Origin: Pseudomonas sp. GGS8
GTDB taxonomy: Bacteria; Pseudomonadota; Gammaproteobacteria; Pseudomonadales; Pseudomonadaceae
NCBI RefSeq assembly: GCF_024168645.1
Contig: NZ_JALJWF010000001.1
Span: forward strand, 6,327,501 to 6,391,500
DNA: 64,000 nucleotides
Direction of reading: 5' to 3'
The notes beneath the pieces were generated by a model. That model ran no database searches. It was not told the origin of the DNA and was given only the letters and a program-made list of their open reading frames with translations. The translations under genes and the position numbers were made by a program. The stretch's first letter is position 1, and each line of letters begins with the position of its first letter. Shown here piece by piece: positions 46,253 through 64,000 of the stretch.

Positions 46253-46624
46253 ATGCCACCACTGATATGGGATCCGTTTGACCTTTTCAACGCACTTGGG
46301 GTTGTTCCTTCTGAGGGAGAGTCCGGGATCTCACATCAGTACATCGTCGAACAGGGCGCTGTCAGACTGCAATTGACCATTTGGCAATTTGATTGCGATG
46401 TTGAAGTCCAGCTGTGGGCGGCTCCGCTACCAAACCCAATAGTGCGGTACTCAATGCTCGATTGCCCGGGTATACGCGTCGTTGACGATAAACGTGGTCG
46501 TTTTTTAGAGTTCGCTGCGTCTAATACCTTCTCGGGTCGCTACGACGGCTATTCAGTCATTCCTTATGGCTTAAGGCTCTGGATTGATCCGCAAATTTTT
46601 CTTGAGCCATTCACCTACTCGTGA
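46253..46624 (+). CDS. Uncharacterised accessory protein
   Basis: The 123-residue soluble protein begins MPPLIWDPFDLFNALG and has a beta-rich middle (AVRLQLTIWQFDCDVEVQLW) and C-terminus (YGLRLWIDPQIFLEPF). AAAGGAAAGTGCA precedes the ATG, which decides the start against a longer upstream frame. I do not recognise it. It follows DUF3885 in the same direction by about 90 bases and may be a second immunity-like gene. Confidence 0.6.
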   Translation: MPPLIWDPFDLFNALGVVPSEGESGISHQYIVEQGAVRLQLTIWQFDCDVEVQLWAAPLPNPIVRYSMLDCPGIRVVDDKRGRFLEFAASNTFSGRYDGYSVIPYGLRLWIDPQIFLEPFTYS

Positions 46625-46781
46625 TTAGTGCTCCCACGTCTTTACCCGCCCCACCATTGCTGGATAATGGCACCCCGCCACAATCAGGCCCTGACCTTGA
46701 TTTCTCAAGGTTTTGTATTGCTACAGCCTGACAGTCACCTTCAAGGATGGACGATCGGCTACGGAACAAGGAGTCAGCACC

Positions 46782-47543: not shown

Positions 47544-47663
47544 GTGCTGGAACAGGGCTCTTTCTTGGTTTCTTCAAACTACGCGACTATCCACGTTATG
47601 CCATTCCAGCCCAGACGCACTACAGATCGCATCACAACTTAAGAATTCGTCTGTAGGGGCTGG

Positions 47664-49040: not shown

Positions 49041-49083
49041 CCATACGATGCCTTCCATGCAACCTGGCATGAAGGGATCCTCA

Positions 49084-49980: not shown

Positions 49981-50031
49981 ACGGCTCGCGTGGCGAAAAA
50001 AATCAAGCTGAAATCACCAGTCGTGCAACAG

Positions 50032-50070
50032 AAAGCCCCTGGTCGGGAAACCGGCCAGGGGCTTTTTTGT
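50032..50070. terminator. Bidirectional terminator
   Basis: AAAGCCCCTGG and CCAGGGGCTTTTTT pair around TCGGGAAACCGG between the EamA gene and the MBL gene on the opposite strand. Confidence 0.9.
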
Positions 50071-50083
50071 AGCGACCAGACCA

Positions 50084-51451
50084 CTAAAGAGGCCCCGTCA
50101 GCTCCACGTTGTCGCGGTACTCCGGCACCGAGACCGACCAGCCCAACTCCAGGCTGATGCGCCGGCGCAATACATCCGAAGCGTTGGGTTCGCCATGTAC
50201 CACATAGGTGTGTTTCGGTGGCCGCTTGAAGCCGCGCAACCACGCCATGATTTCATCGGCGTCGGCGTGCGCGGATAAGGTTTCCATCGGCACCACTTCG
50301 GCGCGAATCGGCACGTCTTTGCCGTGAATACGTACCGACGGGGCGCCTGCGATGATCTGCGCGCCGCGGGTGCCGCCCGCCTGAAAGCCCGGTACCAACA
50401 GCGTATTGAGCGGGTTGGGCGCCAGCGCCTTGAGGTGGTGCAGCACCCGCCCGCCAGTGGCCATGCCGCTGGCGGCGATGATCACCGCGGGTGTGCGCTG
50501 CTGGTCCAGGTCGATGGAGTCTCTGGTGGAACGCACAAAACGCGTGACATGGCACATGCCTTCGCACTCCTCCAGGGACAACCGGTGTTCGCTGCGAAAA
50601 CGCTGGTACAAGCGCGTGACGTCGGTGGCCATGGGGCTGTTGAGGTAGATCGGCAGGTCGGGAATCGCGTGTTTTTGTTGCAAGCGATACAGGTGGTACA
50701 TCAGCAACTGCGCCCGACCGACCGCGAACGATGGCACCAGCGTGATGCCATGGCGCAGTGCGGTACGGGTGATGACCTCGGCCAGTTGATCTTCCGGGGA
50801 TTCGTCGGGATGCCGACGGTCACCGTAGGTCGACTCCACCAGCAGATAATCGGCCTGTTCGATCGTCTCCGGGGCAAACATCAATGGATCGTTCGGCCGC
50901 CCCAGATCCCCGGAGCACACCAGGGTCATGCCATCAGCGACGATTTCCACGATCGCTGCGCCCAGAATATGCCCGGCACCGCGCAACAGAATGCTCATCC
51001 CCGGGACAATGTCGAGCCGGTGGTGCAATTGCACCGGCCGCAGTAATTTCAATGCCCGCTCAGCGTCTTGCTCGGTGTACAGCGGCAAGGCCGGGGTGTG
51101 TTTGGAGAAGCCGTGGCGATTGGCGAACTCGGCCTCTTCTTCCTGCAAGCGGCCGCTGTCGCACAGCAGGATTTTCACCAATTCACAGGTGGCTGGCGTC
51201 GCATATACAGGGCCGCGATAACCGTTGCGAACCAACACCGGCAGGTAGCCGCTGTGATCCAGATGCGCGTGGGTCAGCACAATGGCTTCGAGGTCGCGAA
51301 CCGGCAGCTGGAACGGGTCCCAGTTGTGCAAGCGCAGTTGTTTATAGCCCTGGAACAGGCCGCAATCGATCAGCACATGCTGGTCGCGATGTTCCAGCAG
51401 GTACTTGCTGCCCGTGACCGTGCCCGCAGCACCGAGAAATGTCATTCGCAT
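50084..51451 (-). CDS. Metallo-beta-lactamase/beta-CASP RNase-like protein
   Basis: The 455-residue cytoplasmic protein has the MBL metal site LTHAHLDHSGYLP, the beta-CASP domain (VESTYGDRRHPDES, TLVPSFAVGRAQLLMYHLY, VIIAASGMATGGRVLHHL) and the C-terminal RMMBL His region SAHADADEIMAWL and THVVHGEP-like HTYVVHGEPNAS. These are motifs of RNA-processing nucleases of the CPSF-73/RNase J kind. The start MRMTFLGAAG (51451) is chosen with AAGGAAACGGCC upstream. It is the first gene of the oxygen-responsive stress island; an Anr-type box lies 60 bases upstream. Confidence 0.9.
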   Translation of the reverse strand: MRMTFLGAAGTVTGSKYLLEHRDQHVLIDCGLFQGYKQLRLHNWDPFQLPVRDLEAIVLTHAHLDHSGYLPVLVRNGYRGPVYATPATCELVKILLCDSGRLQEEEAEFANRHGFSKHTPALPLYTEQDAERALKLLRPVQLHHRLDIVPGMSILLRGAGHILGAAIVEIVADGMTLVCSGDLGRPNDPLMFAPETIEQADYLLVESTYGDRRHPDESPEDQLAEVITRTALRHGITLVPSFAVGRAQLLMYHLYRLQQKHAIPDLPIYLNSPMATDVTRLYQRFRSEHRLSLEECEGMCHVTRFVRSTRDSIDLDQQRTPAVIIAASGMATGGRVLHHLKALAPNPLNTLLVPGFQAGGTRGAQIIAGAPSVRIHGKDVPIRAEVVPMETLSAHADADEIMAWLRGFKRPPKHTYVVHGEPNASDVLRRRISLELGWSVSVPEYRDNVELTGPL

Positions 51452-51510
51452 GGCCGTTTCCTTGCGCATTTATGGAGCGCTATTGATCGCTCCTTTACGC
51501 CCATGGGCGG

Positions 51511-51524
51511 TTGATTTTTATCAA
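51511..51524. promoter_or_regulatory. Anr/FNR-type box (perfect)
   Basis: TTGATTTTTATCAA, an exact TTGAT-N4-ATCAA dyad, 60 bases upstream of the MBL/beta-CASP gene. Confidence 0.85.
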
Positions 51525-51548
51525 CCGAGGCCACACGGGTTGATCTTT

Positions 51549-52466
51549 TCAGTCGAGCCGGGGCAATGGCTTGACGATCGTCAGGCTGCAAGGTGACCGG
51601 TTCAACACACTTTCTGCCGTGCTGCCGATGAATATATCGATCCCGCGATGGTAGGTCGTTCCCAGCACCACCATGTCGAAAGCACGTTGTTGTGCGAAAC
51701 GGGCAATCACCTCGGGGGGAGCGCCGGGCAACAGATGACGCTGTTGTTTCTCGATTCCGTAGCGTTCGGCAAGCGCCTCAAAGGCCTCCAACTGAGCATC
51801 ACTGACCGCGTCTCTCAAACTGCCACCCAGTGTCGCTGTCGGCACATTCACTTGCGCCTCCCCCAACTCCGACCAGCCGCTGACATTGAGCAGGTGCAAG
51901 GTAGCACCGCAAGATTCGGCCAGGCTCGATGCGAGGTCGAGAATCCGGTCATTGAGCCCTTGGGTCAGCTCCTCCAGATGGGACAAATCGATGGTCGCCA
52001 GTATGCTCAACGGCTTGGGATTGATGGCATCGATGACCAGGTGCAAGGGCGCCGGACAGTCGCGCAGCAACTGCCAGTCCAGAGGCCGATGGAAGGCGCG
52101 ATCGAGCGCCGATACGCGGTGGGTGTCCTTGATCACCAAGTCTGCATGGAAGTCATTCACGTACTCCAGCAGATGCGCCAGGGTCGGTCTGGCCCACACC
52201 ACTTCAGTGGTCACCTGCGCGCCTTCGCATCGTTGAAACCGGGCTTGCTGCTCCAGCCATTGACGATGTACCTGCAAGTAACCTTCCCGCGCCTGGGCCA
52301 TTGCGTCGTGGTCAAACAAACCGGCCGCCGCCAGCGCCTGGACATAATCGAAAGCGACAATGTGCAACACCGCACCGGTTGCACAGGCCAAGGCCCGCGC
52401 CCGTTCGAACGCCGGGGTGCGGATCATTTCGGTCGGGGCAATCAATAGCAAACGTTGAATTTTCAC
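51549..52466 (-). CDS. Tandem-domain universal stress protein (UspE-like) 1
   Basis: The 305-residue protein contains two Usp domains (about 1-145 and 150-305). Repeated features are a GTP/ATP-domain start (IQRLLLIAPTEM), LVIKDTHRVSALDRAFHRPLDWQLLRDCPAPLHLV and a second-half ATP-type loop FDMVVLGTTYHRGIDIFIGSTAESVL in which the second Gly of the G2xG9xG(S/T) motif is Tyr. Start is GTG at 52466 because GAGGTG lies the right distance upstream. Four such genes occur in 6 kb. An Anr-type box is 70 bases upstream. Confidence 0.9.
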   Translation of the reverse strand: MKIQRLLLIAPTEMIRTPAFERARALACATGAVLHIVAFDYVQALAAAGLFDHDAMAQAREGYLQVHRQWLEQQARFQRCEGAQVTTEVVWARPTLAHLLEYVNDFHADLVIKDTHRVSALDRAFHRPLDWQLLRDCPAPLHLVIDAINPKPLSILATIDLSHLEELTQGLNDRILDLASSLAESCGATLHLLNVSGWSELGEAQVNVPTATLGGSLRDAVSDAQLEAFEALAERYGIEKQQRHLLPGAPPEVIARFAQQRAFDMVVLGTTYHRGIDIFIGSTAESVLNRSPCSLTIVKPLPRLD

Positions 52467-52534
52467 CCTCACCCACCTCGTCTGGATAGCTTCAGGTTGA
52501 GACTCAAGTATCGAGGGGCTCTGGCCATGAGGCT

Positions 52535-52548
52535 CTGATTTTTATCAA
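52535..52548. promoter_or_regulatory. Anr/FNR-type box (one mismatch)
   Basis: CTGATTTTTATCAA, about 70 bases upstream of Usp 1. Confidence 0.75.
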
Positions 52549-52559
52549 CTAATGGCCGG

Positions 52560-53492
52560 TCAGGCATCGGCTTGGCGCCCGACGCTTGAACCCGGCTGCC
52601 TGACCGCCAATAGGCTGCCCGGCACCGAGTACAGCGCCCGCTCTGTATTGCTGCCGATCAAACGGTCGATCCCCACGCGATGTACCGTGCCCATCACCAC
52701 CACATCCGCCAGGTATTGCTCGACAAACTCACTGATCACCGGCACCGGCAAGCCCATGACAAAGTGCCGACGCTCGGGAGGAACACCGTAACGATCCGCC
52801 AGGGTGATAAACGCCCGGTGCAGGGATTCACGCAATTCTTCGGCGAAGTCCACCCCCCAGCCACCGGCGATCAGCGGCGCATCGCCATTGAATGCCGGCG
52901 ACAAGTCGTAGGCGTACAGCAGGTGCAGCGGTGCGTCGCACTGCAGCGCCAGTGCGTTGGCCGTCTGGATGATGGTGTCGTTCAAGCCACTGATTTGCGT
53001 CGCCGGATCGAACGGGTCCACGGCGGCCACGACCCGGTGCGGCAGTGCGTAACGGATCTGGTTGACCAAGTGCACCGGGATCGGACATTCGCGAAGCAGG
53101 TGGCAATCGAGCGGGGTGATGAACACCCGTTTGAGCGCCGGCTCCAGGGTGACGTCCTTGATCAGCAGGTCGGGCTTGAGGTCTTCGATTGTCTTCAAAA
53201 TGTCCAGCAGCGGATGGGTGGTGAAGACGGCCTCAACGGTCACGTCCACACCCTGCCCGCTAAGCCGCTCGACCTCGTCGGCCACCCAACGATGACAGTG
53301 GCGCAGATAACGCTGATACCCCGCCTCGTCGATTTTTTCTTCCCATAAATGAACAATCGGTGCCGGATCGACAAAGGCCCGCACATCCAGCGCGGCCCCG
53401 CTCGCCTTGGCCAGCGCAACGGCACGGAGCAAGGCAGGGGACTGATGCAGGGTCCGGTCGGCAATCAGCAACAAACGTTGATATTGACCCAT
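52560..53492 (-). CDS. Tandem-domain universal stress protein 2
   Basis: The 310-residue two-domain Usp starts MGQYQRLLLIADRTLHQSPA and carries the shared middle motif LLIKDVTLEPALKRVFITPLDCHLLRECPIPVHLV and a C-terminal loop DVVVMGTVHRVGIDRLIGSNTERAL. Here the second Gly of the nucleotide-binding motif is His. GGAGGTG lies 5 bases before the ATG. It is divergent from the GNAT gene, and an Anr-type box lies upstream. Confidence 0.9.
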   Translation of the reverse strand: MGQYQRLLLIADRTLHQSPALLRAVALAKASGAALDVRAFVDPAPIVHLWEEKIDEAGYQRYLRHCHRWVADEVERLSGQGVDVTVEAVFTTHPLLDILKTIEDLKPDLLIKDVTLEPALKRVFITPLDCHLLRECPIPVHLVNQIRYALPHRVVAAVDPFDPATQISGLNDTIIQTANALALQCDAPLHLLYAYDLSPAFNGDAPLIAGGWGVDFAEELRESLHRAFITLADRYGVPPERRHFVMGLPVPVISEFVEQYLADVVVMGTVHRVGIDRLIGSNTERALYSVPGSLLAVRQPGSSVGRQADA

Positions 53493-53567
53493 CTCACACC
53501 TCCGCTCGAAACCGGTCCTTACGCGCCGGCATGGGCCAAGACTGCGCTCGTTACCCCCTCCCCCAGG

Positions 53568-53581
53568 TTGATTTACATCAA
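53568..53581. promoter_or_regulatory. Anr/FNR-type box (perfect)
   Basis: TTGATTTACATCAA, about 76 bases upstream of Usp 2. Confidence 0.85.
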
Positions 53582-53614
53582 ATACCCGCCAATGAACGCC
53601 CTCATGACGGGTGT

Positions 53615-53628
53615 CTGATCCAGATCAG
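53615..53628. promoter_or_regulatory. Anr/FNR-type box (symmetric two-base variant)
   Basis: CTGATCCAGATCAG retains the GAT/ATC core and dyad symmetry, about 89 bases upstream of the GNAT gene; the same variant occurs at 61823. Confidence 0.6.
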
Positions 53629-53716
53629 ATTCAACGGCTGCCAGCAGGGTAAAAAGGTATCGACCGCGTGACTGATTTCCACGCATCCGCTTTTCAAACA
53701 GAATGGAGGACCGTCC

Positions 53717-54283
53717 ATGCTCACAGTCAAAGACCACAATGATCGGGCCGCGGCCGCCTATGCCGCAGTCACCGGAAAGTACTGGATCGAAGCGCTCAAG
53801 GACGGCCGCCATGTGCTGATCCGGCCACTGCTGGAAAAGGACCGCGAACTTGAATACGCCTTCATCAAGCGCCTGTCACCCGAGTCCCGGCACATGCGTT
53901 TTCTCGCGCAGATCAACGAGCCCGGCGCCGCCATGCTCGATCAGTTGATGGACACCGACAACAAACAGCGCATGGCCTACATCGCGCTGGTTCACGAAAA
54001 CGGCAAATTGATCGAAATCGGCGTCAGTCGCTACGCCGCCACAGCGGAACATGAGTGTGAGTGCGCGGTGACGGTCGCTGATGAATGGCAGCACTTGGGC
54101 CTGGGCACCATTTTGATGGAACATCTGATCAAGGCGGCCCGCAGAAACGGTTTTAATCAGATGTATTCGATCGACGCCGCAAGCAACACCCTCATGCGCG
54201 ACCTGACCAAAGCCTTGGGTTTCGAGCGGCACAATGATCCCAACGACAGTCGCCAGGTCATTCATCGTCTGTATATGTCGTAA
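53717..54283 (+). CDS. GNAT-family acetyltransferase (Pat-like C-terminal domain)
   Basis: The 188-residue protein resembles the GNAT module of protein acetyltransferases: HVLIRPLLEKDRELEYAFIKRLSPESRHMRF, ECAVTVADEWQHLGLGTILMEHLI, MYSIDAASNTLMRDLTKALGF. This RLSPES..RF opening is shared with Pat/PatZ-type acetylators that target lysines of metabolic enzymes. It has no ADP-forming acyl-CoA synthetase domain. GGAGG precedes the start. It lies divergent from Usp 2 in the stress island. Confidence 0.88.
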   Translation: MLTVKDHNDRAAAAYAAVTGKYWIEALKDGRHVLIRPLLEKDRELEYAFIKRLSPESRHMRFLAQINEPGAAMLDQLMDTDNKQRMAYIALVHENGKLIEIGVSRYAATAEHECECAVTVADEWQHLGLGTILMEHLIKAARRNGFNQMYSIDAASNTLMRDLTKALGFERHNDPNDSRQVIHRLYMS

Positions 54284-54344
54284 AGCCGATTGCCCCACGA
54301 CGTACCGGCCAACAGTCCGCCGTGGGGCAAGTCAATGTTCAGGG

Positions 54345-55262
54345 TCATAACGACCTGTCGGGTTTGATCGCCAGCACACTGCAAGGGGCTCGGTGCAAGA
54401 GCTGTTCGGCAGTCGTCCCCAATAGCTTGCTCAACCCCGAGTGCTGCACCGTCCCCATCACAATGACATCGGTGTGATGGTCCTCGGCGAACTTGCAAAT
54501 ACTCGGCAATGGCACACCTTCGATGAAGTGCCGACGCTCCGACGGCACGCCGTGACGCTCGGCCAGCGCCGTAAACGTCTGGTGTTGCGCCGTGCCCATG
54601 GCTTCGTAAAGACCGGAGGCCAACGGGAGTGCGCCAACGCCCATGTCCAGGGCATACACGGCCGTCCAGTCATACACATGCACCAACTCGATTTGCGCCT
54701 CGCACTGTTCAGCCAGCTTGGTGGCGGCGTCGATAATCTGGTCATTGAATACCAGGTCCTGCTCTTCGCTACGCAACACATCGACGATGGCCAGCACGTT
54801 ACGTGGCCGCGCGTTCCGGGCGTTGGTCACCAGATGCACCGGCACCGGGCAATCGCGCAACAACTGCCAATCCAGCGGTGTGAAAAACACCCGTTTCAAC
54901 GCCGACTCTTCCTGGGCGTCCTTGATGATCAGACTCAGCGACATCTCGTTGACGAATTGCAGGATTTCCTCGTAAGGGTGCTGTACCCACACCACCTCGC
55001 TGGTGACCTCGACGCCGTGTTTGCTTATCAATTGGGCTTGCTCGGCAAGCCATTGCCGATGGGTTTGCAAATAGCCTTCCCGGGCCTGGGCAATTTGCTC
55101 GGGGGCGAACAGGCCGGCGACGGCCAAGGCCTGCAAGTAATCGAATGCCACGATGTGCAGCGGCGATTGCATCGCGCGGGCCAACGCGGCGGCCCGGTCG
55201 AACGCCGGAGTACGGGTCATGGAATGGGGGGCGATCAACAGTAAACGCTGAGTCTGCGACAT
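54345..55262 (-). CDS. Tandem-domain universal stress protein 3
   Basis: The 305-residue protein has two Usp domains and begins MSQTQRLLLIAPHSMTRTPAF; conserved LIIKDAQEESALKRVFFTPLDWQLLRDCPVPVHLV and C-terminal DVIVMGTVQHSGLSKLLGTTAEQLL (the second Gly of the loop is Gln). The start at 55262 is chosen for GAGGTG upstream, against a longer frame. It shares its first 45 residues closely with Usp 1. An Anr-type box lies upstream. Confidence 0.9.
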   Translation of the reverse strand: MSQTQRLLLIAPHSMTRTPAFDRAAALARAMQSPLHIVAFDYLQALAVAGLFAPEQIAQAREGYLQTHRQWLAEQAQLISKHGVEVTSEVVWVQHPYEEILQFVNEMSLSLIIKDAQEESALKRVFFTPLDWQLLRDCPVPVHLVTNARNARPRNVLAIVDVLRSEEQDLVFNDQIIDAATKLAEQCEAQIELVHVYDWTAVYALDMGVGALPLASGLYEAMGTAQHQTFTALAERHGVPSERRHFIEGVPLPSICKFAEDHHTDVIVMGTVQHSGLSKLLGTTAEQLLHRAPCSVLAIKPDRSL

Positions 55263-55335
55263 GGGACACCTCGGCACGCGGCCATCTCGATGCAATGAGT
55301 AGAACCCTAGAGTGATCGCGACAGATTCGGGCGAC

Positions 55336-55349
55336 TTGATCTTTGTCAG
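55336..55349. promoter_or_regulatory. Anr/FNR-type box (two mismatches)
   Basis: TTGATCTTTGTCAG, about 74 bases upstream of Usp 3; the left half is exact. Confidence 0.55.
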
Positions 55350-55369
55350 CTACAGCGCGCGTATGCACG

Positions 55370-56608
55370 TTAATGCAGCAACATGCCCGCCCACATTGCC
55401 AACGTCAGCAAGACCTGGCCGGGAATGATATACGCGGCGAACCGTCGCCCGCCGCTGACCCAGGCCACCAGGCATTTGCTCAGGGAGTTACTGCTGACGG
55501 CAACCAGCGTGGGCCCGGCAATGGCGTCGAACGGCAACAGCCCGGCCTTGGCCAGAGCGGCAATGGACGCCGTCGAAGAATGGGCATCGGCGAAACCGGT
55601 GAGCGTCGTCGTGACCATCACGCCCACTTCACCAAAGTGGCTGAGCACCATCGAAGACACAAAGGTGATGCCGGTCATGGTCAGTGTGATGACCAACGCC
55701 AGCTTGAGGTTGAATGCACCGCCGACCTTGACCGGCTGATGGGCGTCACTCGCAGGTTGCGGGAACATCAGGCTCAGGCCATACAGCGCCGTGGCGGCGG
55801 CACCACACAACAGCGGTCCCCACATGTGCCGCAACAAACCGGTGTCGACCGCTCCCAGGATCAGGCCGACCTCAATGATGGTGGCCAGGTTGGACAGCAT
55901 CGCTGCCGCGCTCAGGATTTTGATGTTGCCTGGCTCCTTGGCGGCAAGATGCCCCATCGCGGCGATGGTCGCGATGCTGGAAGCGAATCCGGAAGCGATG
56001 GCGCTGACTGCATAGCCGTAACGCGCGCCCAGGATACGAACGGCAATATGCCCTATCGCTCCGACGGCCATCAGCAACACGGTCAAGCTGCAAATGGTGC
56101 GCAGATTGATAGAGGCATACGGACCGATAAAACGGTCAGGCGCCAATGGCAACACCACCAGCGCGGCGACCAACAGCACCAGACCGTCGCGCATTTCCGC
56201 TTCAGTCAATTGGCTACGCGCAAAGTGGTGCAGCTTTTGACGATACGTCAGCAGCCCCGCCACCACCACACCAATGGCAATGGCCAACTCCGGCGCGGTG
56301 CCACACCACGCCCCCAATACCAACACCGTGAATAACGCCACTTCACTGGTGACACCAGGATCATGGCTCAGGCTTCGCCAGTAAGCCACGGTGACCAGCA
56401 AGGCCAGACAGATCGCCATGGTGCCCAACAGCAGACCGCCACCGACCTGCATCGCCACATACCCCAGCAATGCGGTGATCGCAAATGTGCGTAATCCGGC
56501 ACAGGCGCGACTATCCCCCCGCCCCTTGTGCCGTTCACGTTCAAGGCCGATGAGCATGCCGATCCCCAGCGCAGCTGCCGCCCCTGCCAGGCCCAAGGTG
56601 TCGTTCAT
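55370..56608 (-). CDS. MgtC/SapB and DUF4010 membrane protein
   Basis: The 412-residue inner-membrane protein begins MNDTLGLAGAAAALGIGMLI, followed by GLERERHKG and FAITALLGYVAMQVGGGLLL, the MgtC-type N-terminal helices, then DUF4010 repeats of helices (ASGFASSIATIAAMGHLAA, FADAHSSTASIAALAKAGLL). Function unknown; MgtC relatives respond to magnesium or acid stress. The start at 56608 has AGGAATCAC upstream. An Anr-type box is 60 bases upstream. It is divergent from Usp 4. Confidence 0.88.
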   Translation of the reverse strand: MNDTLGLAGAAAALGIGMLIGLERERHKGRGDSRACAGLRTFAITALLGYVAMQVGGGLLLGTMAICLALLVTVAYWRSLSHDPGVTSEVALFTVLVLGAWCGTAPELAIAIGVVVAGLLTYRQKLHHFARSQLTEAEMRDGLVLLVAALVVLPLAPDRFIGPYASINLRTICSLTVLLMAVGAIGHIAVRILGARYGYAVSAIASGFASSIATIAAMGHLAAKEPGNIKILSAAAMLSNLATIIEVGLILGAVDTGLLRHMWGPLLCGAAATALYGLSLMFPQPASDAHQPVKVGGAFNLKLALVITLTMTGITFVSSMVLSHFGEVGVMVTTTLTGFADAHSSTASIAALAKAGLLPFDAIAGPTLVAVSSNSLSKCLVAWVSGGRRFAAYIIPGQVLLTLAMWAGMLLH

Positions 56609-56667
56609 GTGATTCCTGTCCGGGTAAGCCACAACCCCAAGACTGCACCGGCATGACGCAGCAGAGG

Positions 56668-56681
56668 TTGATAGTGGTCAA
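56668..56681. promoter_or_regulatory. Anr/FNR-type box (one mismatch)
   Basis: TTGATAGTGGTCAA, 60 bases upstream of the MgtC/DUF4010 gene. Confidence 0.75.
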
Positions 56682-56747
56682 TGTTTTATAGATGGACGTG
56701 GCGCACCCCGCCACACGTCGGGACGCAGGGCTGGATCACTCGCCAGA

Positions 56748-56761
56748 TTGATAAAGATCAA
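56748..56761. promoter_or_regulatory. Anr/FNR-type box (perfect)
   Basis: TTGATAAAGATCAA, about 108 bases upstream of Usp 4 and also between it and the MgtC/DUF4010 gene. Confidence 0.85.
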
Positions 56762-56868
56762 TCCCGCCCCCTCGGTCAACGGCAGGATAAAAGCCAGAGG
56801 ACCACTGCCCAAACGCAGGGGTGCCAGTGAGTACAGGAATATCTACGATTATTGACGGGAGTTTGGTC

Positions 56869-57789
56869 ATGTCTGAGCAATTACGCTTCATGCTGGTCGT
56901 CTCGCCCCTTATGGAAAACAGCCCCGCGTTCGACCGCGCCGCTGCATTGGCCAAGGCCTCGGACGCAGCCCTGCACATCGTCGCCTTCGATTACCTGCAA
57001 GGCTTGGCAACGGCGAGCATGGTCAACGAACAAGCGCTGGAGGAGATGCGGCTGGGGTATGTCGAGCGCCATCGGCAATGGCTCGAAGAACAGGCTCGTC
57101 CCTTGCGTAAAATCGGGGTGCCCGTCACCACGGAGGTGATTTGGGTTGAACGACCTTTGCAGGAAATCCTCATTCATCTCAAAGAACAACCCATGGCGGT
57201 ACTGATCAAGGCACTGGAATACGAGTCGCTGCTGTCACGCATCATGTTCACCCCCCTGGATATCCATTTGCTGCGTGAATGCCCGGTGCCGCTGCATTTT
57301 GTCAGCCACGTGAAGCACGCGCTGCCGCGCAGAATCGTCGCCGCGGTCGATCCCTTCCATAGCAATACCCAGTACAAGGATTTCAACGACAGGATTTTGC
57401 GCGAGGCCTCAAAACTGGCCAGCGCCTGTAACGCTCAACTCGACGTGATCTACGCCCACGACCTTTCATCCATCAGCGCAGACGAGTTCGATTACGACAG
57501 TAGTTCAGCACTGTTTTCCCCAGGCAAAGCCAAGACGTTATTTGATGCTCAGGCCGATGCCTTCCGCGAACTGGCCGAGCGCAATGGTATTGCGCCAGAG
57601 CAACAGCACATGATCATGGGCAACCCGACCAAGGTCCTTACCCAATACGCCGACGCCTACGACATCGACGTGATTTTCATGGGCCGGGTCGGCCACCGAG
57701 GCGTGGGCCGATTGGTGGGCAGCACGGTGGAGCATCTGCTGTACAAAATGCCGTGCAGTGTCTGGGTGGTTTCACCTGAGGAACTGTAG
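56869..57789 (+). CDS. Tandem-domain universal stress protein 4
   Basis: The 306-residue two-domain Usp begins MSEQLRFMLVVSPLMENSPAF and carries VLIKALEYESLLSRIMFTPLDIHLLRECPVPLHFV and the C-terminal loop DVIFMGRVGHRGVGRLVGSTVEHLL, the one most like the canonical G2xG motif. The start at 56869 is chosen for GGGAG upstream. It is followed by a gene fragment and then the erythromycin-esterase-like gene. Confidence 0.9.
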   Translation: MSEQLRFMLVVSPLMENSPAFDRAAALAKASDAALHIVAFDYLQGLATASMVNEQALEEMRLGYVERHRQWLEEQARPLRKIGVPVTTEVIWVERPLQEILIHLKEQPMAVLIKALEYESLLSRIMFTPLDIHLLRECPVPLHFVSHVKHALPRRIVAAVDPFHSNTQYKDFNDRILREASKLASACNAQLDVIYAHDLSSISADEFDYDSSSALFSPGKAKTLFDAQADAFRELAERNGIAPEQQHMIMGNPTKVLTQYADAYDIDVIFMGRVGHRGVGRLVGSTVEHLLYKMPCSVWVVSPEEL

Positions 57790-57790
57790 A

Positions 57791-57937
57791 GCGCTATTTC
57801 GTGCCGAACTGCCCGGCATGGATCAGGAGAACATCGAGCTCAAACTGTCCAACGGTTGTCTGATCATTAAAGGAGGCCGTCGACATGACACGACGCAGCA
57901 CTGCACGTCGACTAACCCGACATTATGGGGATGACGT
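57791..57937 (+). pseudogene. Hsp20 (alpha-crystallin small heat-shock protein) remnant
   Basis: Frame 57791-57937 reads ALFRAELPGMDQENIELKLS then NGCLIIKGGRR, the middle beta-strand motif of Hsp20 (RAELPG.....I.......L.I.G.R). No start or N-terminus precedes it, because the Usp 4 stop is immediately upstream, and after RR the sequence loses similarity and stops. A remnant of a small heat-shock gene is the best reading. Confidence 0.65.
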
Positions 57938-57939
57938 TC

Positions 57940-59307
57940 ATGAACACACCTTCCCAAAACATGCTGAACCAACTGTATGGCACGCATACCCACATAGACG
58001 AGGCGTCCATCGTCCCGCTCCTGCGTCAATACGCCGAACCCCTGCCGGAACTGAACTCACAAGCCTTTGGTGAAATGTTCGACCGCTACGCGGATGCGCG
58101 CGTGGTGATGATCGGTGAAGCCAGCCATGGCACCAGTGATTTCTATCGGACCCGGGCAGCGATTACCCAACGGCTGATCGAGCAGCACGGGTTCAATATC
58201 GTGGCCGTTGAAGCAGACTGGCCAGACGCGGGTCATGTGGACCGTTACGCCCGGGGGCTGGCACGCTCGGCCTGGGCACGCCACATTTTCAGCCGGTTCC
58301 CGACCTGGATGTGGCGCAACACCGATGTGAAAGCGTTCACCCATTGGCTGCATCAGTACAACCACCAACACGCGCCTGAACAGCGCGTCGAGTTTCGCGG
58401 TCTGGACGTTTACAGTTTGCGCAATTCCATCCACGAGGTTCTGGGCTATCTGGACCGTGTCGACCCGCAGCTGGCACACGAAGCTCGGCGTCGCTATGGC
58501 TGTTTGACCCCGTGGCAGGATGATCCTGCGCTGTACGGCCACTTTGTCGAACGCGACGGAATCATGCCCTGCGAGCATGCAGTGGTCGAACAGCTCAATG
58601 CCATGCTGGCCGAGCAATTGGCCGGGGCCATCAAAGATGATGAAGCGTTCTTCGATGCGACCCAGAACGCCCGGGTCATCCAGGCGGCGGAACAATATTA
58701 CCGAGCGATTTATCGAGGTTCGACGGCCTCCTGGAACCTGCGCGACAGGCACATGTTCGACACATTACGTGCGCTGCTCGAACACCGCGGCCCGCAAGCC
58801 AAGGCCGTGGTGTGGGCGCACAACTCCCATATCGGCAATGCGGCCGCCACGGAAATGGGCTGGAAGGGTCAGTTCAATATCGGTCAGCTGTGCCGCAATG
58901 CCTATGGGCGCGATGTGGTTCTGATCGGCATGAGCACCGACCATGGCCAAGTGGCCGCGGCCAATGACTGGGATGGCGAGATGCTTATCAAGGACATCCG
59001 GCCGTCTCGGCCAGACAGTTGGGAGCGCAAGTTCCTCGACGCCGGTGTCCCGGCTTCATTGACCGACTGGCGGGATCCACAGCGAAAAGAGCTGCGCCGG
59101 GCCTTGTCCAAACCTCTGCTGGAGCGGGCCATCGGTGTGATCTATCGACCCGCCAGCGAGCGCAGCAGCCACTACTTCGAATCAGTGCTGAGCGAACAAT
59201 TCGACGCCATGGTCTGGATTGAACAGACGCAACCGGTAACGGCATTGCCGCTGCCGAAAAGCCAGGCGCTGGAACCGGAAGACGAAACCTTTCCATTCGG
59301 CATATGA
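57940..59307 (+). CDS. Erythromycin esterase-family protein
   Basis: The 455-residue protein shows the EreA/EreB-like family motifs: DARVVMIGEASHGTSDFYRTRAAITQRLIEQHGFNIVAVEADW, VWAHNSHIGNAAATEMGW, SSHYFESVLSEQFDAMVWI. These use a catalytic His/Glu pair on lactone-like substrates, but most bacterial members have unknown substrates, so macrolide resistance should not be assumed. The start at 57940 follows GGGGATGACGTTC. No Anr-type box of its own; probable read-through from Usp 4. Confidence 0.85.
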   Translation: MNTPSQNMLNQLYGTHTHIDEASIVPLLRQYAEPLPELNSQAFGEMFDRYADARVVMIGEASHGTSDFYRTRAAITQRLIEQHGFNIVAVEADWPDAGHVDRYARGLARSAWARHIFSRFPTWMWRNTDVKAFTHWLHQYNHQHAPEQRVEFRGLDVYSLRNSIHEVLGYLDRVDPQLAHEARRRYGCLTPWQDDPALYGHFVERDGIMPCEHAVVEQLNAMLAEQLAGAIKDDEAFFDATQNARVIQAAEQYYRAIYRGSTASWNLRDRHMFDTLRALLEHRGPQAKAVVWAHNSHIGNAAATEMGWKGQFNIGQLCRNAYGRDVVLIGMSTDHGQVAAANDWDGEMLIKDIRPSRPDSWERKFLDAGVPASLTDWRDPQRKELRRALSKPLLERAIGVIYRPASERSSHYFESVLSEQFDAMVWIEQTQPVTALPLPKSQALEPEDETFPFGI

Positions 59308-59341
59308 CAGGCATCAGACGGTGGTTGTCGGCTTTGGATGA

Positions 59342-59992
59342 CTACCGTCGCAAATACTGCTCGAACCAGTCGCCGGCCAGTCTGGCGACTTCTTCGAGGG
59401 TTCCTGCCTCTTCAAAAAGATGTGTCGCGCCCGCCACCACTTCCAGGCGCTGCTCGCACTGCAAGGCGCGACCGCTTTGCACATTGAGATTGAGCACCGC
59501 CGGATCCAGCTCACCGACAATCTGCAAGGTCGGGGCCTTCACGCGGGACAGCGCCGCACCCGCCAGATCGGTCCGCCCTCCCCGGCTCACCACCGCATGC
59601 ACCACGTCCGCCCGCTCGGCCGCGGCCAATAGCGCCGCCGCTGCACCGGTGCTGGCGCCGAACAATCCGATCGGTAGCGGTTGCAGTTCGGCGTCCCGGC
59701 CAATCCAGTCGATCACCTTCACCAGTCGGCTGGACAGCAGCGCAATATTGAAACGCAATTCCCGGGTCTGGTTGTCCAGGTATTGCTCCGGTTCCGTGAG
59801 CAGATCGAACAGCAACGTGCCCAACCCCCGCTGAGCCAGAGAGAGTGCGACCTGTTGATTGCGCGGGCTTGAACGACCACTGCCGCTGCCATGAACGAAC
59901 ACCACCAGGCCGCCAGCGTGCACCGGCAGACGCAGGTCGGCAGACAGCTCCACGTTCCCCAGGTCGAGCTTTCGATAGCGAGGCTCAAACAT
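59342..59992 (-). CDS. Alpha/beta hydrolase (dienelactone hydrolase-like)
   Basis: The 216-residue protein begins MFEPRYRKLDLGNVELSADL and shows VVFVHGSGSGRSSPRNQQVA, the nucleophile elbow IGLFGASTGAAAALLAAA (G-A-S-T-G in place of GxSxG) and a C-terminal GATHLFEEAGTLEEVARL with the catalytic His. The start at 59992 has AGGAGG 7 bases upstream and overlaps the end of the phosphoribosyltransferase gene by 8 bases. In other bacteria these two domains occur fused. Confidence 0.85.
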   Translation of the reverse strand: MFEPRYRKLDLGNVELSADLRLPVHAGGLVVFVHGSGSGRSSPRNQQVALSLAQRGLGTLLFDLLTEPEQYLDNQTRELRFNIALLSSRLVKVIDWIGRDAELQPLPIGLFGASTGAAAALLAAAERADVVHAVVSRGGRTDLAGAALSRVKAPTLQIVGELDPAVLNLNVQSGRALQCEQRLEVVAGATHLFEEAGTLEEVARLAGDWFEQYLRR

Positions 59993-60692
59993 CGGAATCC
60001 TCCTGACCGCAAACACGCGTAGCGGATTCTCTGCGCCAGGCCCGTTGCAAACGATCGATGACTTCTTCATCCGAGGTCTGGGAAAAATTCATGTACCAAT
60101 TGCCGATCGACATCAACCACTCGGGGGTGAGCGGACAGATCACCTCATCGACTTCGCTATACAGCGCCTCTACCGTCTCGGGTGGCGCCACCGGCACGGC
60201 GACGACAATACGCGACGGTGCTTGCAGGCGCACCGCCTGTACCGCCGCCATCATTGAAGCCCCGGTCGCCAGGCCATCGTCGACCAGAATCACCACCTGA
60301 TCCTTGAGCGCCACGGGGGCACGCGAGCCCCGGTACAGGCGCTCGCGACGCAACAGCTCCTGGGTTTCCCGTGCCACCACGTTATCGAGCGTGCGCTGAT
60401 CGATGCGGTTCGCCCGCAGCGTATCGTCATTGACGATCTGGATGCCGCCACTGGCAATCGCGCCCATGGCGAACTCCTGATGGAATGGCACCCCCAGCTT
60501 GCGGACCAGCATCAGGTCCAGGCGAACCTCCAGGGCCGTGGCAATTTCATAGGCAACCGGCACGCCGCCACGGGGCAAGGCGAGAACGATGACATCGGGT
60601 CGATGAGCGTATTTGAGCAGCGGCTCCACCAGCCGTCGACCGGCATCCACCCGGTCACGCAAGAGGGTTTGCGTCGAGGGACTCTGAATCAC
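59985..60692 (-). CDS. Phosphoribosyltransferase-domain protein
   Basis: The 235-residue protein has the type I PRTase PRPP loop VILVDDGLATGASMMAAVQAV and an N-terminal segment DVIVLALPRGGVPVAYEIATALEVRLDLMLVRKLG. It is a free-standing PRTase of the kind seen beside or fused to alpha/beta hydrolases; substrate unknown. The start is GTG at 60692 with GGGAGG upstream. Two Anr-type boxes lie upstream. First gene of a two-gene unit with the hydrolase. Confidence 0.86.
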   Translation of the reverse strand: MIQSPSTQTLLRDRVDAGRRLVEPLLKYAHRPDVIVLALPRGGVPVAYEIATALEVRLDLMLVRKLGVPFHQEFAMGAIASGGIQIVNDDTLRANRIDQRTLDNVVARETQELLRRERLYRGSRAPVALKDQVVILVDDGLATGASMMAAVQAVRLQAPSRIVVAVPVAPPETVEALYSEVDEVICPLTPEWLMSIGNWYMNFSQTSDEEVIDRLQRAWRRESATRVCGQEDSDV

Positions 60693-60816
60693 TTGAAAAC
60701 CTCCCCAGGCGATCACACCTGTCGGTTCATATCACACAGCCTTGACCTCTCCACGTCCTTGCGGGATCAAGCATCAGCTTTCATTAAAAGTCCTCCGCTG
60801 GAGTCTCCTTGTCGTT

Positions 60817-60830
60817 GATTTTTATCAAGC
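60817..60830. promoter_or_regulatory. Anr/FNR-type box (perfect)
   Basis: TTGATTTTTATCAA, about 125 bases upstream of the phosphoribosyltransferase gene. Confidence 0.8.
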
Positions 60831-60888
60831 TCGCGCGCAAGGCCCGCCATGGACGCGCAAGGGTTTGGCATTTCTCATTTCGCCGTTG

Positions 60889-60902
60889 TTGATCAATATC
60901 AA
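60889..60902. promoter_or_regulatory. Anr/FNR-type box (perfect)
   Basis: TTGATCAATATCAA, the second of a pair 72 bases apart upstream of the phosphoribosyltransferase gene. Confidence 0.8.
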
Positions 60903-60980
60903 TCAGGCTTGGGCTGAATGGATTACGTTGCCAATAGTGGAAAGCGCCGCGCCGCAGCGGCTCTCTGTGGGAGACTGCAA

Positions 60981-61074
60981 TCACTTAAGCCAGAATGCGA
61001 TCTGTAGCAGCTGGCGAAGCCTGCGTTCGGCAGCTGCTACAAAGAATGCGTCGCGGCTGAAATTGCTTAAGTGA
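60981..61074. repeat. Nested palindrome containing a REP hairpin
   Basis: Outer arms TCACTTAAGC and GCTTAAGTGA enclose a REP-like inner hairpin with 11-base arms TGTAGCAGCTG and CAGCTGCTACA (61003-61041). It lies between the PRTase boxes and the 3' end of the Spy-like gene. Confidence 0.65.
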
Positions 61075-61177
61075 ACAGCATTACCCTTACGAAACGGAGT
61101 TTTGTATTGAGGTCTGGCGTCATGGCGCCGCGCGATGACGGGCAACGGTTGCAGCGTAATCGAACAGTGAATACCGC

Positions 61178-61762
61178 TTACTGTTTGCTTGTGTCGTCCT
61201 GCTCGCCTTGCATCATTCGCGGTCTGAACATGTGCATCGGCATCTGCCAACGGTCATCGCCAAAGAGCCGGTGATGCACCACCGTCCAGAACAGATCGAA
61301 AATGGTTTTCTGCTCAGCATCCAAAACCTCGTAGAAGGTTTTGGTACGCACCAGCGCAGCATCCAGGCGCTCCAGATGCGCCTCCATCCACTTGGTTTGT
61401 GCGCGCAAACGCTCTATCTCTCTGGCCATTCTTTCGGGGGTCGTTTCATCCATCGACGCCGTCTTCGTGCTCGCCATTTCATCACGTCCGGCCTTGGCCT
61501 TTTCCTGATGCTGATTGGCGTCCGTCATGACCCCCGTGGCCCATGTGCCCCAGGCGGCCATTTGCTCCGGCTTGAGATTGAGCTTGCCCTTGAGATCGTC
61601 CAGGGTCTGTTGCGTGTATTTGACCCAATCGAAATCCTGAGAACGATGATACATGCCACCTTGCGCAGGCATCGGTGGGTTGGCGAAGACGCTGGAGGAT
61701 GGCACCAGCAACACGCTTGCCGCCATCAACATGCATTGGCCGATCAGGCTTGATCTGTTCAT
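61178..61762 (-). CDS. Spy/CpxP-like periplasmic LTxxQ protein
   Basis: The 194-residue protein has a signal peptide (cleaved near SVFAN) and a helical domain with two LTxxQ-type motifs, NLKPEQMAAW and LDAEQKTIF, and long amphipathic helices between. It is likely a periplasmic chaperone or envelope-stress protein of the Spy/CpxP/RcnR-like group. The C-terminus is Met/His-rich (MPMHMFRPRMMQG), suggesting metal binding. An Anr-type box lies 61 bases upstream. Confidence 0.82.
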   Translation of the reverse strand: MNRSSLIGQCMLMAASVLLVPSSSVFANPPMPAQGGMYHRSQDFDWVKYTQQTLDDLKGKLNLKPEQMAAWGTWATGVMTDANQHQEKAKAGRDEMASTKTASMDETTPERMAREIERLRAQTKWMEAHLERLDAALVRTKTFYEVLDAEQKTIFDLFWTVVHHRLFGDDRWQMPMHMFRPRMMQGEQDDTSKQ

Positions 61763-61822
61763 TTCAGTTCATCTCGACACCGTGGTGTTGATTCGAGCAT
61801 AGGAGTCGGCCGGAGGGAGTAT

Positions 61823-61836
61823 CTGATCCACATCAG
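61823..61836. promoter_or_regulatory. Anr/FNR-type box (symmetric two-base variant)
   Basis: CTGATCCACATCAG, 61 bases upstream of the Spy-like gene, the same variant as at 53615. Confidence 0.6.
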
Positions 61837-62156
61837 AAAACAGACAGGCGGCCGAGCAAGCGGATAGACGGTCGAGTGGCCCCCGTCATTGGAAAAGCAG
61901 CCAGCAATCGTTATCGGCGGTGCTGTCACCCAATCCAGCGGATCACTGGCTCCTTCCGGGGGACGGGTACGGGCGCGGGCGGCCCGAGATCGCTTTATCG
62001 ATGTTCATGGGGGGCATACCTCAAAAGAGTGTCATATCCTTTATAAAGTCATTCGCCCACGAGGGCTTGCTGTTGATCTAAATCTAATCAAGGCACAACC
62101 GGCCTCCCGTTTTGTCTGACGACTCGCCCCCTCGGAGCGAACCACATTGCGCGAAA

Positions 62157-62170
62157 TTGATCTGCATCAG
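62157..62170. promoter_or_regulatory. Anr/FNR-type box (one mismatch)
   Basis: TTGATCTGCATCAG, about 94 bases upstream of the polysaccharide deacetylase gene. Confidence 0.7.
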
Positions 62171-62263
62171 ATAGACGATGAACGCTCAATACACACTGGA
62201 TGCGTCTGGCTCGCTCTCGCGACAGGCAACGCGAGTGAAAACGGCTTGCGCAGGAGCGCTGAC

Positions 62264-63115
62264 ATGTGCGGGAAGATCATGGTGTGTATCGGTGGCAGCG
62301 TCGCGTTGCGGCTGCTGATCCGCGTCATGTTGGTGTGCGTCTGCGCACTGGCCTGGGGCGCGGACGGCGCCGCACAGAGCGCCGAACCACGCGTCACGAT
62401 CCTCGTTTACCACCGGTTCTCGGACACGGCCGACGACTCGATGACCGTGCGCATGAGCACCTTCGAAACCCAGTTGCGCGTCCTGCACGAGCACGGTTAT
62501 CACATTGTGTCGCTGCGCGAGGTGGTCGACTGGCTGCGTAATCCCGATGCGACATTAGCGTCGAAGCCGGTGGTGATCACCGTCGACGACGGGCATCGTT
62601 CGGTGTTCGACAAACTGCTGCCCGTGGTGCTGCGCGAGCGTTTTCCGGTGACCCTGTTTATCTATCCATCGGCAATCTCGAACGCGTCCTATGCACTGAC
62701 CTGGGAGCAATTGCGCACCCTGAAACAGACCGGACTCATCGACATCCAGTCGCATACGTACTGGCATCCCAATTTCAACGTCGAGCGCAGGCACCGCACA
62801 CCGGCGGATTTCCAGCAATTCGTCCGTACCCAACTGCAAAAATCACGTCAACGCATCGAGTCGCAAACCGGTGCGCAGCAGGTCGACATGCTCGCGTGGC
62901 CGTTCGGTATCTACGACGACGAGTTGATCGCACTCGCCTCCGACGAGGGTTACGCAGTGGCCTTCACACTAGACGCGCGCAAGGCCGATCGGCACGCGCG
63001 ACTACTCGCCCTGCCGCGCTTTCTGATGAGTGACGCCTACGGCGCACGGGCGTTCGCGCAGCTGCTCGGCGAACCGAACACTGCGCCGACACCCGCAGAG
63101 GGGAACCCGCGATGA
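62264..63115 (+). CDS. Secreted polysaccharide deacetylase
   Basis: The 283-residue protein has a signal peptide (GGSVALRLLIRVMLVCVCALAW region) and a NodB-type domain: ILVYHRFSDTADDSMTVRMSTFETQLRVL, VVITVDDGHRSVFDKLLPVV (TxDDG metal site), LIDIQSHTYWHPNFN (SHTxxHP) and MLAWPFGIYDDELIALASDEGYAVAFTLD. It would remove N-acetyl groups from a cell-surface polysaccharide. The start at 62264 has AGGAG 8 bases upstream. The next gene starts inside its stop codon (ATGA). Confidence 0.88.
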   Translation: MCGKIMVCIGGSVALRLLIRVMLVCVCALAWGADGAAQSAEPRVTILVYHRFSDTADDSMTVRMSTFETQLRVLHEHGYHIVSLREVVDWLRNPDATLASKPVVITVDDGHRSVFDKLLPVVLRERFPVTLFIYPSAISNASYALTWEQLRTLKQTGLIDIQSHTYWHPNFNVERRHRTPADFQQFVRTQLQKSRQRIESQTGAQQVDMLAWPFGIYDDELIALASDEGYAVAFTLDARKADRHARLLALPRFLMSDAYGARAFAQLLGEPNTAPTPAEGNPR

Positions 63116-64000
63116 CCTTCATCCGCGCGCTGAGGCGCTATGCGATCCCGGCGCTACTCGCCGTCACTGCCCTGCTGACCGGGCGAGGCGCACTGGCCGT
63201 CACCGGTGTGGTGCTCGACTCGAGCACGCAGAACCCGCTCGCCGACGCAATCATCACGACATCGGCCGGCGTGATGCGTACCGACGAAAACGGACGGTTC
63301 GAGACGGCCGAGGCAGTCGAGAGTGTCGCCGCCCGCGCCCCTGGGTATTTGCGCACCGAGGCCAAAGTGGGCGACGACACGTCCGTGACGCTCGCACTGA
63401 CCCCGTTTCGCCCCAAAGCGGTCTATCTGTCGGTGTTCGGCGTGACCAGTTCGACCCTGCGCAACAACGTTGTCAGCCTTACGGAAAACACCGAGATCAA
63501 TGCATTGGTGATCGACGTCAAGGGTGACCGTGGCCTGACGCCCTATCGCAGTGTGGCGCGCGAGACGATCGGCGCCGCAGCCCATCTGACTACACGGGCA
63601 CCTCAGATGCGCGACTTTCCGGCGTTGCTTGCCAAGCTGCATGCCCAACACCTGTACCTGATCGCACGCATCGTGGTGTTCAAGGACGATCCACTTGCCG
63701 ATGCTCATCCGCAGTGGAGCGTGCACACCGCCGATGGCCAGCCGTGGCGGGATCTCGAAAAGCTGCAATGGATGGATCCGTTTTCGCACGAGGTCTGGCA
63801 GCACAATCTCGATATCGCCGAGGAGGCCGCGCGGATGGGTTTCGACGAGATTCAGTTCGACTATGTGCGTTTTCCCGACAAGAGTGGGCTACGCTTTGCC
63901 CTCCCCAACAACCGCGCCAACCGGACGGCGGCGATCATCGGCTTTCTGCAGGCCGCACACGCGCGGCTCGCGCCCTACAACGTGTTCATCTCCGCAGACA
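63112..64000 (+). CDS. Putative secreted glycoside hydrolase (COG1306/DUF4015-like), 3' end outside window
   Basis: The frame is open to the end of the window (about 296 codons). It has a signal peptide (cleaved near GALAV), a short carboxypeptidase-regulatory-like domain (VTGVVLDSSTQNPLADAIITTSAGV, TDENGRFE) and a catalytic TIM-barrel-type domain: PKAVYLSVFG, NALVIDVKGDRG, HAQHLYLIARIVVFKDDPLA, MGFDEIQFDYVRFPD. These match the putative glycoside hydrolases of DUF4015. It overlaps the deacetylase gene as ATGA, so the pair probably processes one polysaccharide. Confidence 0.82.
   Translation, partial: MTFIRALRRYAIPALLAVTALLTGRGALAVTGVVLDSSTQNPLADAIITTSAGVMRTDENGRFETAEAVESVAARAPGYLRTEAKVGDDTSVTLALTPFRPKAVYLSVFGVTSSTLRNNVVSLTENTEINALVIDVKGDRGLTPYRSVARETIGAAAHLTTRAPQMRDFPALLAKLHAQHLYLIARIVVFKDDPLADAHPQWSVHTADGQPWRDLEKLQWMDPFSHEVWQHNLDIAEEAARMGFDEIQFDYVRFPDKSGLRFALPNNRANRTAAIIGFLQAAHARLAPYNVFISAD

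Follow-up and report, generated by a model that had tools for sequence, protein, structure and literature searches.

Stress-gene clusters beside FNR-type regulators have been described in Pseudomonas putida KT2440, and they are the closest counterparts of the locus treated here, an island of stress genes with FNR-type boxes in the soil-type strain Pseudomonas sp. GGS8. The window, that is, the whole stretch of DNA analysed, is 64 kb long (genome positions 6327501-6391500, in an assembly of one 6.72-Mb contig), and the island begins at window position 50084. According to the published account, the P. putida clusters PP_3230-PP_3238 and PP_3287-PP_3294 encode an acetyltransferase, universal stress proteins (USPs), a metallo-beta-lactamase (MBL), a phosphoribosyltransferase and HSP20, with FnrB and FnrC, respectively, as putative regulators (PMC7801951). 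When nitrogen is limiting, these counterparts decrease jointly in the wild type, by 6- to 130-fold, as do the cbb3 oxidase genes (PMC7801951). The GGS8 locus differs in being one island with 12 boxes in the window, in having HSP20 reduced to a remnant, and in adding phosphoketolase, FtsH, NamZ, deacetylase/DUF4015 and Spy-like genes. It has one resident regulator of the PP_3287 type, and no PP_3233-type protein was found among the 6 matches in the genome.

In Burkholderia cenocepacia the lxa locus, a low-oxygen cluster, encodes six USPs together with an alpha-crystallin heat-shock protein (BCAM0278) and a protein with a BON domain (PMC6127331); it is also treated in PMC9104464 and PMC9733578. 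The GGS8 island has four USPs and, of HSP20, no more than a remnant; HSP20 and BON genes occur in related Pseudomonas islands. Unlike the island, lxa has about 50 genes, and the term "FNR" is absent from the main text of PMC6127331, the two being compared by description only. B. cenocepacia H111, which is without lxa, has a uspA gene upstream of anr2 (PMC9104464).

A partial likeness exists with the DosR regulon of Mycobacterium tuberculosis, which belongs to another phylum and is not run by an Fe-S FNR protein. Its control lies with the DosS/DosT-DosR two-component system. Compared in gene content only, the DosR regulon shares USP, HSP20, phosphoribosyltransferase and esterase types with GGS8, where the last two are near neighbours; the HspX operon Rv2028c-Rv2031c encodes a USP and HSP20, and Rv2030c has both phosphoribosyltransferase and erythromycin-esterase-superfamily assignments (PMC4410610). 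The Anr core regulon of Pseudomonas uses the same kind of box and the same regulator family, but the five-species comparison in PMC6588701 leaves an island of this kind untreated: it mentions "stress protein" once, in a reference title, and in its main text never mentions "paralog" or PP_3233.

The preliminary description of this DNA held that such an island was not described as a unit. Similar clusters are in print for P. putida (PMC7801951), for lxa (PMC6127331) and, in the uspA-anr2 pair, for strain H111 (PMC9104464). Our literature search, mostly without subscription papers, found no account of an island that is tied to a regulator throughout the genus and has most of its units preceded by a box, and to this extent the statement holds. 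The kind of system is already known from the P. putida fnrB/fnrC clusters, Burkholderia lxa and partly DosR; the apparently new part is a resident FnrC-type regulator amid many boxes across the genus.

Density, placing and conservation of the boxes

Counting mismatches against TTGAT-N4-ATCAA throughout the genome, we found 27 perfect sites and 379 sites with at most one mismatch; a backward control pattern gave 1 and 27. The 13.9-kb segment 50084-64000 contains five perfect sites against 0.046 expected from the rest of the genome (Poisson P 1.6e-9), and ten with at most one mismatch against 0.77 (P 1e-8). The pattern YTGAT-N4-ATCAR occurs nine times in the segment, where 20 control stretches of 20 kb, evenly spaced and totalling 400 kb, predict 0.21; no control stretch has more than 2 perfect sites. 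At up to two mismatches, the window as a whole has 39 matches against a mean of 19 after shuffling. Box density in the segment exceeds chance and is unmatched in the controls covering 400 kb, in agreement with the earlier remark that comparable density was not seen elsewhere. Eleven of the 12 strong boxes are intergenic, and the intergenic share of the segment is 13.9% (binomial P 4e-9).

All eleven boxes of the preliminary description are present with the mismatches given there, and a twelfth, at 62073, had been missed. Perfect boxes begin at 51511, 53568, 56748, 60815 and 60889, and one-mismatch intergenic boxes at 52535, 56668, 62073 and 62157; the box at 55336 has two mismatches, and those at 53615 and 61823 are CTGAT..ATCAG variants. 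A further one-mismatch match, at 52648, is within the USP2 coding sequence. The features of the segment are as follows (window positions).

50084..51469, minus strand: MBL/beta-CASP ribonuclease-like protein (Pfam Beta-Casp, RMMBL); start probably ATG at 51451
51511..51524, minus strand: perfect FNR-type box before the MBL/beta-CASP gene
51549..52472, minus strand: universal stress protein 1 (USP1), two Usp domains (PF00582)
52535..52548, minus strand: one-mismatch box before USP1; -10-like GATACT 22 nt on
52560..53492, minus strand: universal stress protein 2 (USP2; PF00582)
53568..53581, minus strand: perfect box before USP2; identical letters in genomes G005, G049 and G033
53615..53628, plus strand: CTGATCCAGATCAG box before GNAT; identical in 4 of 8 other aligned genomes (G005, G049, G039, G035)
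53717..54283, plus strand: GNAT acetyltransferase (PF00583), the most constant partner of the regulator
54345..55259, minus strand: universal stress protein 3 (USP3; PF00582)
55336..55349, minus strand: two-mismatch box before USP3
55370..56632, minus strand: MgtC/DUF4010 membrane protein (PF13194, PF02308)
56668..56681, minus strand: one-mismatch box before MgtC/DUF4010
56748..56761, plus strand: perfect box before USP4; -10-like GATAAA 24 nt on
56869..57789, plus strand: universal stress protein 4 (USP4; PF00582)
57803..57873, plus strand: remnant of an HSP20 small heat-shock gene, 71 bp, ahead of the esterase-like gene (DNA similarity)
57925..59307, plus strand: erythromycin-esterase-family protein (PF05139, E 1.4e-129)
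59342..60070, minus strand: alpha/beta hydrolase (PF20408)
59985..60716, minus strand: phosphoribosyltransferase (PF00156)
60815..60828, minus strand: perfect box before the phosphoribosyltransferase-hydrolase pair
60889..60902, minus strand: second perfect box before the same pair
61178..61762, minus strand: Spy/LTXXQ-family protein (PF07813)
61823..61836, minus strand: CTGATCCACATCAG box before the Spy-like gene; -10-like TATGCT 21 nt on
62073..62086, plus strand: one-mismatch box before the deacetylase gene
62157..62170, plus strand: one-mismatch box before the deacetylase gene
62264..63115, plus strand: PgaB-like polysaccharide deacetylase (PF01522, on 62147-63115); probable start ATG at 62264
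63112..64000, plus strand: DUF4015 putative glycosyl hydrolase, leaving the window (PF13200, E 3.4e-109 on the full gene L243:112-1383)

The segment holds thirteen genes, the last cut by the window end, where about ten had been counted. The claim that almost every transcription unit has a box is right in that the boxes are of the FNR/Anr type and provide one kind of switch site for many units; it passed over the esterase-like gene at 57925-59307, which has no box directly before it and is perhaps transcribed together with USP4.

Could the boxes have arisen by chance in AT-rich intergenic DNA and be without function? A motif this short, and the usually higher AT content between genes in such genomes, would favour that reading. 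Chance of this kind is strongly disfavoured, to the point of being extremely improbable, by the enrichment over both the same genome and the 20 control stretches, by the constancy of several boxes between diverged flanks, and by the recurrence of boxes before matching genes in shuffled gene orders. In the USP2-GNAT gap, aligned for 9 genomes, the boxes stand out from their flanks; the GNAT box reads CTGATGTAGATCAG in G033 and is degenerate, as TTGACNATTGTCAG, in the three P. putida-like genomes G077, G057 and G045. The sequence TTGATCTTTATCAR occurs between the USP3 and MgtC genes in G005, G049, G033 and G061.

Part of the boxes may also stand at a spacing from a -10-like element that would fit class II activation. 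Of the island's 14 box-gene pairs, 6 match TATAAT in at least 4 of 6 letters at gaps of 18-27; eight other windows of ten gaps give 0-3 of 14. Over 99 box-gene pairs from 21 genomes, the mean best TATAAT match is 2.84 of 6 at gaps 21-24 and 2.09 elsewhere (sd 0.19, max 2.47), with its peak around gaps 19-24. Matches to the deacetylase query, which was out of frame, were excluded from all comparisons except for 1 of these 99 pairs.

Some boxes lie elsewhere. One perfect box, at genome 5654142-5654155, precedes the matched part of a tandem Usp gene by about 230 bp; this gene is not in the island, so that such boxes occur near USP genes elsewhere too. Another, at genome 6326268-6326281 (L016:18768), is 1.2 kb before the window and 52 kb from the first island box; it is just over 100 bp before a small Met-rich open reading frame without a Pfam match (L016:18887-19309), and the open reading frames beside it resemble, judged by eye, a copper-resistance cluster. 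Two further perfect boxes, at genome 4765893 and 4772149, are identical in sequence (TTGATATCGATCAA) and 6 kb apart; two weaker Crp/FNR relatives are encoded 15-33 kb away, at 4739403 and 4750773. At L017:11273 a perfect box falls within the kinase gene, and we excluded it as a promoter site.

As for the gene products, the best solved relative of the MBL/beta-CASP protein is the RNase TTHA0252 (E 2.3e-77), and the GNAT protein is 32% identical over 78% of its length to Escherichia coli Pat, a protein lysine acetyltransferase. The esterase-like protein scores far below the EreA/EreB cut-offs, so that a drug-resistance role is unsupported. The match of the deacetylase to the PgaB model is below the model cut-off. 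The HSP20 remnant is 75-91% identical in DNA to stretches in seven relatives, and in G004 the corresponding stretch is inside a gene with a full HSP20 domain. No tRNA was found in the window, and no Rfam match at gathering score in 45000-64000. Elsewhere in the window, a 774-amino-acid protein at 30246-32570 has two haem-peroxidase (PF00141) stretches.

The resident regulator and the distribution of the island

The island continues past position 64000 (L017) with genes for a beta-lactamase-fold/NamZ protein, an FtsH-type protease, an ion channel, a phosphoketolase, a regulator and an alcohol dehydrogenase. The regulator is listed with genome coordinates:

6399256-6400017 (L017:7856-8620), about 8 kb past the window end: resident Crp/FNR-family regulator P0001, 254 amino acids (PF00027 and PF13545)

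The regulator and phosphoketolase genes are divergent across one perfect box, and a perfect box also lies between these two genes in G005, G049 and G066. Cysteines C22, C25, C31 and C124 of P0001 align with the [4Fe-4S] cluster ligands of Aliivibrio fischeri FNR (CX2CX5C and one distal). In the FNR family, DNA contacts are made by E..SR of the recognition helix. The clade of P0001 keeps the E and the R and in most members has Cys in place of the FNR Ser; L133-L135 have Ser. The other close FNR relative in the genome, at 3973259, is 40% identical to P0001 and has an Anr-type recognition helix; weaker Crp/FNR relatives without the cysteine motif are also present.

A 36-row tree places the regulator with 22 relatives beyond a branch supported at 100/100, which separates them from the Anr rows and from two PP_3233-type rows; Anr was not cleanly resolved from the PP_3233 type, and L144 forms a long branch. 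Left out were the distant Crp/FNR relatives L042-L045, the alphaproteobacterial relative L096_x187 and the near-copy L046_x139. By its place in this tree, the island regulator is assigned to the P. putida PP_3287 (FnrC) type and not to Anr, the type having been recognised in two P. putida-like loci by an Arg next to the second cysteine, with PP_3287 itself outside the tree. PP_3287 has Arg after the second cysteine, and both PP_3287 and PP_3233 are described as reacting with oxygen more slowly than Anr (PMC4505428). P0001 has Ser at the position where the P. putida-like clade members have Arg, so that this residue gives no indication of its oxygen sensitivity.

We searched 99 Pseudomonas genomes, GGS8 counted among them. 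The FnrC-type regulator is present in 21 of the 99, at a limit of about 45% identity to P0001; this set includes G058, whose regulator is in two pieces, and excludes G095 (44-45%), G082 and G069 (42-43%) and second FNR copies at 32-39%. GNAT is found in 21/21 regulator-bearing genomes and in 8/78 others (Fisher 2.7e-15), MBL/beta-CASP in 13/21 and 2/78 (P 2.9e-9), and the median number of perfect boxes per genome is 17 in regulator-bearing genomes and 11 in others (P 4e-4); none of these tests (Fisher, Mann-Whitney) takes shared ancestry into account.

In 20 relatives, each read over 35-38 kb around the regulator, USP, GNAT, MgtC-DUF4010, MBL and phosphoketolase genes occur in varying order with mostly intergenic boxes; USP matches in relatives are labelled by best paralogue only. 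The families are represented in 21 stretches as follows: Usp in 20, the regulator in 20, GNAT in 19, MgtC-DUF4010 in 12, MBL in 11 and phosphoketolase in 7. The neighbours of the PP_3287 group, USP, GNAT and MBL, are thus present, though not all three in every member.

Among 80 loci, the nearest named relative is Pseudomonas sp. GM18, with 97% identity in the esterase-like protein. The GM18 island (L046) is flanked on both sides by the genes that flank it in GGS8, keeps the shared genes in the same order and has a regulator 95.7% identical, but no match for MBL, USP2, USP3, phosphoribosyltransferase, Spy-like or phosphoketolase genes, and only a 37-amino-acid piece of the hydrolase. The two boxes between USP1 and GNAT persist in GM18 despite the six missing genes. 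The two strains thus provide a natural example of genes gained or lost from between boxes that stayed conserved.

The preliminary description proposed to check whether the block moves as a unit among Pseudomonas genomes. We reject such movement: gene order varies between genomes, the modules are shuffled, and genes are missing even in GM18. The left neighbour, an EamA transporter gene, is more than 200 kb from the island in G005. In no other genome among the 57 searched, many of them drafts, are the neighbours EamA and DAHL kinase close together, and no empty site was found.

Across the phylum, 19 of 398 genomes (GGS8 included) have a GNAT relative at E<=1e-18. We read the surroundings at seven places in six of the other 18 genomes, and four places have island-type genes: phosphoketolase, MBL, BON, alcohol dehydrogenase and an FNR-type protein in G309; hydrolase, phosphoribosyltransferase, esterase-like, BON, HSP20 and alcohol dehydrogenase in G250; an FNR-type protein, USPs and HSP20 at the first place in G159; and weak USP and MBL matches in G436. 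No island-type genes were seen at the second place in G159, in G242 (near a contig end) or, a 25% BON match aside, in G155.

Plasmid searches with GNAT and the phosphoribosyltransferase yielded only relatives below 60% identity. On a Rhodococcus plasmid, the phosphoribosyltransferase match is inside a gene annotated as erythromycin esterase family (L230:8965-11013), with universal and general stress protein genes around it, a USP being within 9 kb. On a Bosea plasmid, it is likewise inside an erythromycin-esterase-family gene (L231:8992-10818), with HSP20 within 9 kb.

Control of the island

We consider it likely that the island is a modular low-oxygen persistence regulon read by both Anr and a resident FnrC-type sensor. 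Most transcription units from the MBL/beta-CASP gene to the regulator are preceded by an FNR-type box. At falling oxygen these boxes would be bound by Fe-S dimers, both of the FnrC-type regulator and of Anr, whose gene lies elsewhere. Binding would switch on the universal stress proteins, the protein-acetyltransferase-like GNAT and the beta-CASP RNase, and also the phosphoribosyltransferase/hydrolase/esterase-like set, the phosphoketolase and the envelope enzymes. In GGS8 the regulator may control itself through the perfect box common to the divergent phosphoketolase gene. Parallels with the other systems suggest that these genes may serve as a dormancy kit.

The preliminary description proposed control by Anr, which is plausible and incomplete. 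Eight genomes have GNAT without a counted regulator, and in seven of them a box stands before GNAT, 87-137 bp from the matched part (one perfect, four one-mismatch and two CTGAT..ATCAG); since these seven lack an FnrC-type regulator and keep the box, Anr is a plausible user. The remaining genome, G095, encodes a regulator homologue of 44-45% identity next to GNAT, and neither GNAT copy is preceded by a strict box. The earlier proposal did not include the island's own FNR-type regulator. The retained boxes favour use in common, whereby Anr would suffice in some genomes and the resident regulator would have been added or kept in others, although they do not show which protein is bound in GGS8.

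Anr might instead control the island alone, the FnrC-type regulator having a few targets of its own or a fine-tuning role. This reading, which we regard as a serious possibility and yet a doubtful one, would explain the seven retained GNAT boxes, and it suits a box that is the general Anr/FNR consensus, in a genus where all 99 genomes have an FNR-type match (E<=1e-20) and the 11 non-island rows examined carry one identical Anr-type recognition helix. It is harder to reconcile with the USP or GNAT genes near the regulator in 20/20 relatives and with the co-occurrence of the regulator with GNAT and MBL far beyond chance. A member of the Dnr/NO type, which would make this a nitrosative-stress island, is an improbable main reader. 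Dnr binds the same motif as Anr/FNR, and the genome has the weaker Crp/FNR relatives without the cysteine motif, but no denitrification protein is among the island proteins tested and the island regulator retains Fe-S-type cysteines.

Several observations weigh against control by Anr together with the resident sensor. The resident regulator may be dispensable, because the GNAT box is kept in seven genomes without it. In G058 the regulator is in two pieces only, and in G038 (L144) a homologue without N-terminal cysteines, with a similar DNA-binding helix, has GNAT and USP genes as neighbours. Only 9/20 relatives have a box in the 300 bp ahead of the regulator, so self-control is not general; in GM18 the phosphoketolase gene is missing, as is any strict box ahead of the regulator. 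In 8/14 box-gene pairs, the regulator's own included, no -10 element matching in 4 of 6 letters stands at the expected spacing, and the 99 pairs are not independent, just as the co-occurrence tests disregard ancestry. The P. putida response was to nitrogen limitation and not to a controlled oxygen change (PMC7801951).

On balance we favour the two-regulator account, and the earlier interpretation, right in kind and incomplete, is partly supported. A bolder extension is that the islands are self-contained, re-shuffled hypoxia-persistence modules with their own oxygen sensor, the box set being read by two Fe-S sensors of different oxygen thresholds, Anr fast and the FnrC type slower, in line with the published behaviour of the P. 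putida proteins. Entry into a protected state would then be graded and in some strains self-reinforcing, and a similar kit would have been assembled in several lineages under unrelated oxygen sensors. We offer this tentatively and think it rather unlikely to hold; its chances are lowered because GM18 is without a strict box before the regulator.

With an FnrC-type regulator amid some twelve boxes, of which several are conserved, the island points to likely targets and opens a question raised in PMC4505428 on the three P. putida proteins to direct testing. The island ties together gene sets described apart in P. putida, in Burkholderia and in part in mycobacteria, and it predicts that oxygen limitation would couple protein acetylation, RNA decay, phosphoketolase metabolism and envelope remodelling.

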